A DNA stretch of 64,000 nt, from NCBI GenBank assembly GCA_958296125.1, contig OY282444.1, positions 4,759,266-4,823,265 on the forward strand, given 5' to 3'. The translations under genes and the position numbers were made by a program. The notes under the pieces are model-generated. The model made no database searches. It was not told where the DNA came from and was given only the letters and a program-made list of their open reading frames with translations. The first letter of the stretch is position 1. Every line of letters starts with the position of its first letter. The stretch comes from an uncultured Poribacteria bacterium (lineage in GTDB: Bacteria > Poribacteria > WGA-4E > PCPOR2b). Below are positions 51,626 through 57,612 of this stretch, piece by piece.

Positions 51626-52489
51626 ATGCTACGATATGTTTTTGCCGTGATATTTTTTGTATTTGCAGCGTCTATTTCGGAAAGCTTGGAGGTCGGCGAT
51701 AGTGCCTTACGGACTACTATTGTGTCCGGTGATAAGGAAATAAAATTCGCTGATTTTCATGGGAAATCCAATCTCATCGTTGTGCATGATGCAGTGAAGC
51801 GTTCAGAATTTATCGCTCAGTTGGATCAGAAAGCGAGTGCATTCGAGAGCACCTATGATGCGACCATTATCCGTTTGCAGGGAGAAGGTGAAACCCTCAT
51901 CATCGACAAATCGGGATACGTCCGTTGGAAGTTGCCCAACGCCGCCGATTCGGCACAACCCACGATTAAACAACTCGAATCCGAACTAGCAAAACTCAAA
52001 CGCGATAACCCGCTGCCGATTGGTTCACCGGCCCCGGACTTCCGACTAGTAGATGTGGAAACTGGCATCCCTTTCAACCTTTCCAACTACAAAGGAAAAA
52101 AGCACCTACTAGTTACGCTATTGCTGCAAACCTACTGACCGCATTGTGCCAATTTCACGTCGCAGTTTGCGACAAATCGCCAGTTATTTGATGAGAAGTA
52201 TGAGACCGCTGTTGTTGCTATCAAACCTGAACCGAAGCCGGTTGTCTTTCGCTTTAAGGACCCGGTCACAATGAACCTACCACTGTTGGCAGATCCCGGC
52301 TCCTCCATTCACGAAGCGTACGGAATCGTTGAACCGTATCGTTTCCACAACCGGGATATGTATCTGCCAGCAACACTTCTCATTGATAAGCAGGGCGTTT
52401 TGAGATGGATGTATATTAGTAAGAAAAACTCTGATCGTCCCAGTTTGGATTCAATCGTCGAACAACTTGACAAATTGAACGCTGAATGA
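51626..52489 (+). CDS. Predicted selenoprotein: thioredoxin-fold redoxin with in-frame UGA in a UxxC motif
   Basis: The frame from the ATG at 51626 meets TGA at codon 171 (52136-52138) and then continues open in the same frame to a stop at 52489, 287 residues in all. Order: signal peptide (about 1-19), a degenerate thioredoxin-like domain, then a full AhpC/TSA-redoxin-like domain starting LPIGSPAPDFRLVDVETG. Around the TGA the text is LLLQTY-U-PHCANFTSQF, so the UGA falls on the first Cys of a CPHC motif (C174 is the second). Downstream PLLADPGSSIHEAYGI and LPATLLIDKQGVLRWMYISK are standard redoxin text. A hairpin after the UGA fits SECIS rules. Alternatives are a nonsense mutation or a base error. 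Sec machinery is not in the window. Confidence 0.65.
52159..52173 (+). promoter_or_regulatory. SECIS-like hairpin downstream of the UGA codon
   Basis: GTCGCA (52159-52164) and TGCGAC (52168-52173) form a perfect 6-bp stem with a GTT loop; flanking ATTT (52152-52155) and AAAT (52174-52177) can extend it past a CAC bulge. The loop starts 26 bases after the UGA and begins with G followed by U. Known bacterial SECIS elements have the loop roughly 16-37 bases from the UGA, with a G in its first positions. Confidence 0.5.
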
Positions 52490-55023: not shown

Positions 55024-55782
55024 TCAAACCGCTAAGATAAATCGTTTCGCCTCACTCAGACGGGCGTGTGTATCCGGATGGAGAAATTTGCGCTGGTCCG
55101 TCAATTGCTTTTGATCGCGGCGGCAGAAATAGGCGAGCATCCCATGGCGCGGCGAGTCGGTTTGATTCAATCCGCCCGCATGCCAGAGATGCGAATTGAA
55201 GATAATGACAGTCCCCGATGAAGCTATCAATTGAATTTCTTTGGGATGTTTTTGTGCTGCAGCTTCTAGCGCATCCTTGGGGTGCTTGCCGCTACGATGC
55301 GACCCCGGCACAACACGCGTCGCGCCATTCTCCACCGTGAAATCGTCCAGTAACCACATGGAGTTGCAAACGTAGTAATCGCCCGGCTGCACGCCCGAAC
55401 GCCAATCCGCGTGAAACGCTTGGTGCCCTTGTCCGGGCAGCGCCATTCGGCAATCTAAAGAGGAAAGTTTGAACCGAGGCCCTATGACATGCCGTATGGC
55501 GGCAAGCACCCGCGGGTGCGAAAAACCAACCTCGAACATCGAACCTTTATTAATGAGGTTGCTCACCCTGATTGTCCCTCCTTCTTGATGGAGCTCTTTG
55601 CCTGCATCCTCTCCTTCTAAGGCTGCCAATTCGTCCAATCGACTAATCATGTTCGTAATCTGTTTTTGGGTGAGAATATTCTCAAGCGGGAGGTAGCCGT
55701 TCACGTCTAATACGTGCTTTTCTTCTGACGATAGCGTGTCGTCCCGGACACCGAACTCGTGTAGAGCTTGGTCCATGTTCAT
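55024..55782 (-). CDS. PhyH family Fe(II)/2-oxoglutarate dioxygenase, copy A
   Basis: 252 residues from the ATG at 55782 (AGGAG 9 bases upstream); the longer 314-codon frame runs back over the neighbouring PhyH gene. Iron ligands: HAD in GHQAFHADWRSG and His in NSHLWHAGGLN. The Arg that holds 2-oxoglutarate is likely R in DSPRHGMLAYF. GATRVVPGSHRSG is the standard strand between them. Family members hydroxylate lipids or small molecules. Seventeen bases separate it from copy B, so they share an mRNA. Confidence 0.88.
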   Translation of the reverse strand: MNMDQALHEFGVRDDTLSSEEKHVLDVNGYLPLENILTQKQITNMISRLDELAALEGEDAGKELHQEGGTIRVSNLINKGSMFEVGFSHPRVLAAIRHVIGPRFKLSSLDCRMALPGQGHQAFHADWRSGVQPGDYYVCNSMWLLDDFTVENGATRVVPGSHRSGKHPKDALEAAAQKHPKEIQLIASSGTVIIFNSHLWHAGGLNQTDSPRHGMLAYFCRRDQKQLTDQRKFLHPDTHARLSEAKRFILAV

Positions 55783-55798
55783 AGTCAACTTCTCCTGT

Positions 55799-56680
55799 TT
55801 AGATTGGCTCTGGCGGAGTTCTTTTTGCCTCCCACATTTCCCAAGATTCGACGGTTTCGGGCTGCTGCTGACTGCGTGCGATAAAACCGGGCCACTTCTG
55901 AAGCAACCATTCCAATGGACTGCCGGTTGGACTGTAGCGCAGGTCAATACTCCAGCGAATATCTTCACTCGTATTCTCTAGGGAGTGGTGAAAGGTCAGA
56001 TTACCAAACACAAAGACATCTCCTACCTTCATGCGGACGTTTTGTACCTCCCCCCAGCTTTCAACATCCTCGACAGGAACGAGTCGCCGATTTTCATCTC
56101 GATGTGACGGTCGAAGCCCCCGTTTGTGACTTCCAGAAATTACTTGTAAGCAGCCGTTCCGCTCATCAACATCTACCATGGGAATCCATACCGTCAGGAT
56201 TTGGCTTTCCTCCGAAAGAGGGACCTGCTGACCTGGATCGACGTTACCATTGTAGTAGATGCTGTCTTGGTGCCACGGAAAGACGGACTCTCCGCCGGTC
56301 GGCATCTTGAAGCGAATCCAGTAATCCCCGTTGACGGTAAGCTCCGGACCAATTAGCGAAGCAACAATATCCAAGATCTTCGGATGGGTTATCAGTTCGT
56401 AAACCTCGCGACTGAAGACCTCTTTATTCCAATTCCAACTCAAGAGCGGTCCCCCCTGAGATTCGCGGAGAATGCGTGTCAATCGATGGTAAAAGGACAA
56501 ATCTTCATACAGACTTGAGATTTTGCCTGTGTCGTAGAGTTCTTTGGCACGATGGTCAATAGTAGATGCAATGACCCGGCGGATCGGGACAAAATCCTGC
56601 TCATTAAGCACGCCACGAACTAGCAGATACCCCTGTTCGTCGAATGCTTGGCGTTGCGCTGCACTTGACAAATTATTCAT
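55799..56680 (-). CDS. PhyH family Fe(II)/2-oxoglutarate dioxygenase, copy B
   Basis: 293 residues from the ATG at 56680, with GAGGAGAGG 6 bases upstream. Opens FDEQGYLLVRGVL. HQD ligands in VFPWHQDSIYY; distal His in FGNLTFHHSLENTS; Arg in DIRWSIDLRYSP. GCLQVISGSHKRG is present. The Trp-rich C-terminus (EWLLQKWPGFIAR) is common in bacterial PhyH. Substrate unknown; middle gene of a three-PhyH run. Confidence 0.9.
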   Translation of the reverse strand: MNNLSSAAQRQAFDEQGYLLVRGVLNEQDFVPIRRVIASTIDHRAKELYDTGKISSLYEDLSFYHRLTRILRESQGGPLLSWNWNKEVFSREVYELITHPKILDIVASLIGPELTVNGDYWIRFKMPTGGESVFPWHQDSIYYNGNVDPGQQVPLSEESQILTVWIPMVDVDERNGCLQVISGSHKRGLRPSHRDENRRLVPVEDVESWGEVQNVRMKVGDVFVFGNLTFHHSLENTSEDIRWSIDLRYSPTGSPLEWLLQKWPGFIARSQQQPETVESWEMWEAKRTPPEPI

Positions 56681-56766
56681 GAAGAACCTCTCCTCCCGGT
56701 AAGATTGGAATTTCGCTACGCTCAACCTGCTAGGTATCTGCGAAGGCTGCCCCACAAGAAATTCCG

Positions 56767-57612
56767 TCAACCCCAACGCTGCTCTGGCGGGTCAAATAGG
56801 AAACCGTGAAAGAGCTTACGTTGTTCCGGGGAAAGGCGGCTGTTGTAGAACCCTTTGGAATATCCCCAATGCTCTTGAGAGGCAATCATCCATGGGTGCT
56901 CATAGGCATAGTAGAGCATGAACCGTAAGCCGCCCGCTTGGGTAAATGGGCCCGCCGAATGCCAGAGGGCGTTGTGGAATAGAATTGCTGTTCCCGCAGG
57001 AGCGCAGATCTGCACTGCACCGGGAAACAGGTCAGGCCGCTGCAAATCATCCTGAGGTGGCGCGTGCGTCGCTTTGTGGCTTGCAGGGACAACACAAAGA
57101 TTTCCCTGTCCGGGGGAGGTCATATCGTTCAGGTAGTAGCCAATCTTGAGTTGGAGAAAGGGAATCGGCGCACCAAGTCCACGGTATCCCTGGTCATGCC
57201 CATCAATATGCCACCCCATCCCCCGATCCGCGAAATCCATTTCATACTCAACGATAGCATCGGAAGCGTGATGGTGAGGCATTTCATTGAGTAACCCTTT
57301 GACGTAAGGCATCATTGGGGACCAATCCAGCATCTCAAGGAACAGCGGATCGTCGTCTAGAATATAAAAGATGCGGGTGCTTTTCTCGCCTTTAACATCC
57401 GTTCTGCCGGTATGGGGGATTTCTTTTTCCTGTTTTTCGCGCCGTCGGGCTATTGTGCGGAACAAAGCTTCTTGGAGTTCGTTGACGTGGGATTCCGCTA
57501 GGAAATTCTCCAGCACCAGATAGCCGTTATTGTCGAAAAAGAAGTGCTCTGACGGCGTTGGTTGCGCTTCCTTTGTAGAGCGCGATACATGCGTTACATG
57601 CTTTCCTGACAT
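56767..57612 (-). CDS. PhyH family Fe(II)/2-oxoglutarate dioxygenase, copy C
   Basis: 281 residues. FFFDNNGYLVLENFL at the start, HID ligands in GMGWHIDGHDQG, distal His in FHNALWHSAGP, Arg in GGLRFMLYYAYEH. GNLCVVPASHKA lies between. It ends 86 bases before copy B and follows the RNase Z-like gene by 63 bases. Substrate unknown. Confidence 0.9.
   Translation of the reverse strand: MSGKHVTHVSRSTKEAQPTPSEHFFFDNNGYLVLENFLAESHVNELQEALFRTIARRREKQEKEIPHTGRTDVKGEKSTRIFYILDDDPLFLEMLDWSPMMPYVKGLLNEMPHHHASDAIVEYEMDFADRGMGWHIDGHDQGYRGLGAPIPFLQLKIGYYLNDMTSPGQGNLCVVPASHKATHAPPQDDLQRPDLFPGAVQICAPAGTAILFHNALWHSAGPFTQAGGLRFMLYYAYEHPWMIASQEHWGYSKGFYNSRLSPEQRKLFHGFLFDPPEQRWG

Follow-up and report, generated by a model that had tools for sequence, protein, structure and literature searches.

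The gene at positions 51626 to 52489 of the window, which is the whole 64,000-nucleotide stretch of an uncultured Poribacteria genome (contig OY282444.1) analysed here, is proposed to encode a selenoprotein through an in-frame UGA, with a probability of about 0.93 judged from sequence evidence. The conservation of the codon among orthologues, the complete Sec machinery and a co-varying SECIS hairpin support selenocysteine (Sec) as the predicted first residue of a UxxC redox motif. The features of the gene, all on the plus strand, are the following:

51626..52489, plus: putative selenoprotein gene, 287 aa with UGA as Sec (frame, orthologues)
51626..51685, plus: residues ~1-20, predicted to be a signal peptide or a segment for membrane export (inspection only)
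51689..52006, plus: N-terminal domain, apparent decayed tandem redoxin copy without active-site Cys/Sec (L027, self-comparison, model)
52010..52486, plus: C-terminal AhpC/TSA-redoxin domain with UxxC (PF00578, PF08534; Bcp/AhpE folds)
52136..52138, plus: in-frame UGA, predicted Sec171 (TGA in 19/19 orthologues)
52145..52147, plus: putative resolving Cys174 of the U-P-H-C motif (invariant in 19/19)
52159..52173, plus: bSECIS-type hairpin GUCGCA-GUU-UGCGAC, 6 bp with a G-U-U loop (codon-shuffle, frozen sites, covariation)

By sequence inspection, the frame contains one in-frame TGA, at codon 171, and runs from the ATG at 51626 through 170 codons, Sec and 116 further codons to the final TGA at 52487-52489, with AGGA visible 7 bases upstream of the ATG. 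The sequence-only reading had described the same open frame with redoxin sequence on the far side of the TGA, which was confirmed, including by PF00578 and PF08534 matches; it had also expected routine annotation to yield ORFs of 170 and 72 residues, and exactly these 170-aa and 72-aa pieces appear in the mechanical ORF list of the gene. Under ordinary annotation, the stop codon splits the gene at its active site.

Conservation of the In-Frame TGA

A search of 98 genomes found clear orthologues in 18 further genomes (49-76% identity, E < 1e-78). All 19 orthologues, window copy included, have TGA at aligned codon 171 and one TGA inside each protein; neither Cys, nor another sense codon, nor a frameshift was found at this codon among the 18 other Poribacteria orthologues, and no further internal stop or frameshift is present in any of the 19. 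When 84,980 species were scanned for the motif, 16 loci were found; each carries a Poribacteria title and has its TGA in the corresponding codon. These 16 contigs come from a GTDB-based collection, and their genomes probably overlap those of the 98-genome search. A profile search that covered 387 relatives, some of them from other phyla, brought up neither a further member with a strong match over the full length nor a form with Cys, and no Cys orthologue was found in these 387 genomes or in the motif scan. In these searches, every member of the family came from Poribacteria and had the Sec form. The sequence-only reading had suggested asking whether homologues have Cys at position 171: none does in the orthologous family, and Cys was seen there only in more distant redoxins (for example, FYRGLFCPYC in L029).

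Substitution counts against the five nearest orthologues gave dN of 0.04-0.10 and dS of 0.64-1.03 downstream of the TGA (dN/dS ~0.1), and the codons 3' of the TGA are, by these counts, under strong purifying selection. Gene loss does happen, as one genome (G048) retains only residues ~1-50 and ~235-end, which is what could be said for a pseudogene or a sequencing error, with the TGA as a nonsense mutation or a misread TGT/TGC. The orthologues refute this reading, which has next to no probability left: the identical TGA occurs in 19 genomes with identity down to 49%, other stops and frameshifts are missing and selection continues past the TGA. Because of the shared TGA and the purifying selection, a sequencing error or a recent nonsense mutation is excluded without reads. 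The sequence-only reading had considered the TGA unlikely as a chance nonsense change, which agrees with its presence at the same codon in the 18 orthologues, and the unrelated stops or frameshifts in relatives that it had named as evidence to the contrary were seen in none of them.

SECIS Element and Selenocysteine Machinery

The bacterial SECIS is a stem-loop directly 3' of the UGA with a small apical loop containing G (PMC1088965). The hairpin after UGA171 has this form, weakly in one subgroup, with its stem starting 20 nt and its loop 26 nt after the UGA. In the codon-shuffle control, where synonymous codons were redrawn for the same peptide, hairpins of equal quality were rare: p was 0.016 in the window, about 0.001-0.03 in most relatives and 0.001-0.01 in several of these. 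In L016, L018, L019 and L022-L025 (part of one family), a G-A mismatch interrupts the stem; here p was 0.07-0.18, and the advantage over shuffled codons is not convincing. At the invariant residues of codons 174-182, a region picked after inspection, there is almost no synonymous variation, with a mean entropy of 0.15 compared to 1.17 when every invariant column is counted (p=7e-5, random draws). Across orthologues and paralogous Sec redoxins, 72 of 77 stem cells are paired, with two-sided changes at most positions; the arms were hand-anchored on the apical loop, as MAFFT had misplaced these short arms, and included 3-nt-loop hairpins only. None of 10000 arm shuffles matched the observed pairing, in a test inflated by the kinship of the sequences. 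RNAfold has the hairpin in its predicted fold, but the stability of the region is ordinary (z -0.4), and the Rfam scan at the hairpin gave no relevant RNA match.

The four genes that the sequence-only reading had proposed to look for, selA, selB, selC and selD, are all present in the genome. selA (601 bits, cut-off 268), selB (370 bits, cut-off 242) and selC, the tRNA-Sec (76.6 bits, cut-off 47; anticodon UCA), lie side by side on one strand (G000:C1 47917-51463). selD (370 bits; L054, G000:C1:1302552-1303472) has one in-frame TGA inside, and the selenophosphate synthetase is therefore probably a selenoprotein itself. Of 82 related genomes from the same class, 70 have a selA above the cut-off; no selA above it was found in two orthologue-bearing draft genomes (G008 and G060), perhaps because of genome incompleteness. 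A contig of the latter (G060:C125) was considered as a stand-alone N-terminal domain and rejected, being the same gene truncated at the contig end.

Decoding of the UGA without Sec, by genome-wide reassignment to Trp or Gly or by near-cognate readthrough, is very improbable. Plain readthrough would likewise keep the downstream frame under selection; however, tRNA-Sec, SelA, SelB and SelD are all encoded, the SECIS hairpin lies 3' of UGA171, and codon 171 corresponds to the redox Cys of other redoxins. Code reassignment in particular was rejected on account of this machinery and hairpin, and because TGA still serves as the terminal stop of the gene itself and of most orthologues. For Sec insertion, the SelB-Sec-tRNA complex would bind the hairpin 3' of UGA171, and Sec would be inserted in place of termination.

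Domain Architecture and Proposed Function

Residues 132-276 match AhpC-TSA (PF00578, 66.2 bits, cut-off 26) and Redoxin (PF08534, 52.1 bits, cut-off 26.6). The AlphaFold2 model (pLDDT 78, pTM 0.75; pLDDT about 56 near the active site) has two consecutive thioredoxin-like strand/helix patterns, and its closest structural matches are the Bcp and AhpE peroxiredoxins, with TMt of 0.8 or more over one domain. In the orthologue L027, the N-terminal domain is a fuller copy that shares 37% identity with the C-terminal domain of the same protein (E=2e-20) and has lost the active-site motif, with QTQQ-IDTT aligned to QTYUIFCAG; the window copy can be recognised solely at the end of this domain (E=5e-6 over 36 aa). 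From these comparisons and the model, the N-terminal third is interpreted as a second redoxin domain, arranged in tandem and since decayed. As an ex-redoxin from which the catalytic motif and much of the core have gone, it would probably have only a structural or docking role. In many orthologues, by inspection, the hydrophobic stretch closes with A-x-A-like residues ahead of LEVGD, and the product is predicted to be an exported two-domain redoxin selenoprotein.

Sec171 and Cys174, where the active-site helix begins, would form a redox centre of the type U-P-x-C. The residues between U and C vary among orthologues (PH, PS, PY, PI, PV and IF). The sequence-only reading had named the motif a DsbA-type CPHC; Sec as the first residue of a UxxC redox motif is supported, and the DsbA-type assignment is not supported because the fold is Prx/ResA-like (Bcp/AhpE/ResA-like). 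DsbA membership was rejected, with no PF01323 match up to E 1. By analogy with the chemistry of ResA/TlpA and UxxC redoxins, Sec171 may act as the low-pKa attacker, Cys174 may resolve it through a Se-S bond, and a thioredoxin-like donor may reduce this bond. The protein would likely reduce disulfides or peroxides, and do so outside the cytoplasm.

Among these chemistries, that of a thiol-disulfide oxidoreductase is somewhat favoured, by analogy. A peroxiredoxin-type peroxidase into which Sec is inserted is a live, although less likely, alternative, since the Bcp profile alignment places Cys174 on or close to the peroxidatic residue and pairs Sec171 with the Thr of TxxC; the PF00578 match and the nearest folds, those of Bcp and AhpE, also favour it. 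Against a peroxidase, the redox residues are arranged as in thioredoxin/ResA (UxxC), and the top NCBIfam score is for ResA, though far under the cut-off (40 vs 170 bits).

Other Predicted Selenocysteine Redoxins

At least five more in-frame TGA codons at redox sites were found in redoxin genes (PF00578 matches) of the same genome, where Cys redoxins are also present. L073/L074 (G000:C1:3702845-3703666, minus strand) is one frame with two peroxiredoxin domains, each with DFTGGU, and this tandem Prx with two in-frame UGA codons is apparently a double selenoprotein. Three further PF00578 genes have TGA at the redox position, L077 (WUPFC), L079 (WUPNS) and L084 (YUPKD); L079 and L084 are without the usual resolving Cys, and the G-loop hairpins after the UGA are clear in L077 and L084 and weaker in L079. 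Another type of Sec redoxin occurs in other families of the class (L028, L030 and L033), with longer proteins in which upstream HEAT-like repeats are followed by a redoxin with LLADWU(P/G)xC and with a SECIS-like hairpin.

Genomic Context and Significance

In the window genus, the gene lies between aldo/keto reductase-like and mandelate-racemase-like genes, whereas in other Poribacteria its flanks are tsaB-like and polysaccharide-exporter-like genes (names by inspection). As the flanks differ between these groups, the neighbours give no functional clue. In the single-contig genome G048, the orthologue remnant (L031:1344-1663, residues ~1-50 fused to ~235-end) has these tsaB-like and polysaccharide-exporter-like genes on its two sides; from the sequence, the gene was lost there by internal deletion while selA was kept. 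In the window, adjoining the neighbourhood of the selenoprotein gene, positions 55024-57612 on the minus strand hold three consecutive ORFs that resemble PhyH-like dioxygenases by inspection and are syntenic in the genus.

Poribacteria are a phylum known from marine sponges. The co-occurrence of SelA and SelB has been reported in most sponge-symbiont genome bins, from various phyla (PMC5649159), and the literature search found no mention of Poribacteria and selenoproteins together. The gene and its paralogues suggest redoxins as a use of the Sec machinery in Poribacteria. Since standard annotation splits Sec redoxins at the active site, it probably overlooks redox enzymes in this phylum. A broader proposal, tentative and somewhat short of even odds, is that of a Poribacteria-only, Sec-only family of tandem redoxins, with one half non-catalytic and Sec obligatory in the other, within an expanded extracytoplasmic Sec redoxin set of sponge symbionts.

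Comparison with Known Families

No curated NCBIfam model matches the window protein with a score as high as its cut-off, and automatic annotation would therefore probably miss the gene. Similarity to the SelL-related redox protein NF040769 was detectable in 17 of the 17 members scanned, and the window protein missed the cut-off of this model (32.8 vs 120 bits). With ResA/TlpA it shares an exported redoxin, export being predicted here, and an xPxC centre, and ResA gave the best NCBIfam score, below its cut-off (NF002854, 40.3 vs 170 bits); it differs in having Sec for Cys and an additional N-terminal domain. The PH dipeptide of DsbA (CPHC) is shared by the window copy, but varies in the orthologues. 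Unlike classical peroxiredoxins, the protein lacks T-x-x-C with the peroxidatic Cys, having Sec at the Thr position and the motif UxxC.

The Prx-like thiol:disulfide oxidoreductases UxxC/UxxU (PF00578) and the Redoxin UxxC proteins (PF08534) are predicted selenoprotein families in reviews (PMC13188914, PMC9312934). The Redoxin selenoproteins share with the window protein the Redoxin match (52 bits) and UxxC, and the architecture appears to differ by the fused decayed N-terminal copy. The protein has PF00578 above the cut-off together with U171-P-H-C174, as in Prx-like UxxC selenoproteins, with which it shares the AhpC/TSA domain, Sec as the first residue of UxxC and a predicted bacterial SECIS; it differs from them in its fusion to a decayed N-terminal redoxin, its restriction to Poribacteria and the lack of any Cys orthologue in the searches. 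Of the earlier proposal of a probable new selenoprotein, the selenoprotein is retained and the new kind is not, the gene being a lineage-restricted member of a family already listed (PMC13188914, PMC9312934). By the naming of the field, it would fall among the predicted Prx-like UxxC (PF00578) selenoproteins, with the fused decayed redoxin domain as its unusual feature.
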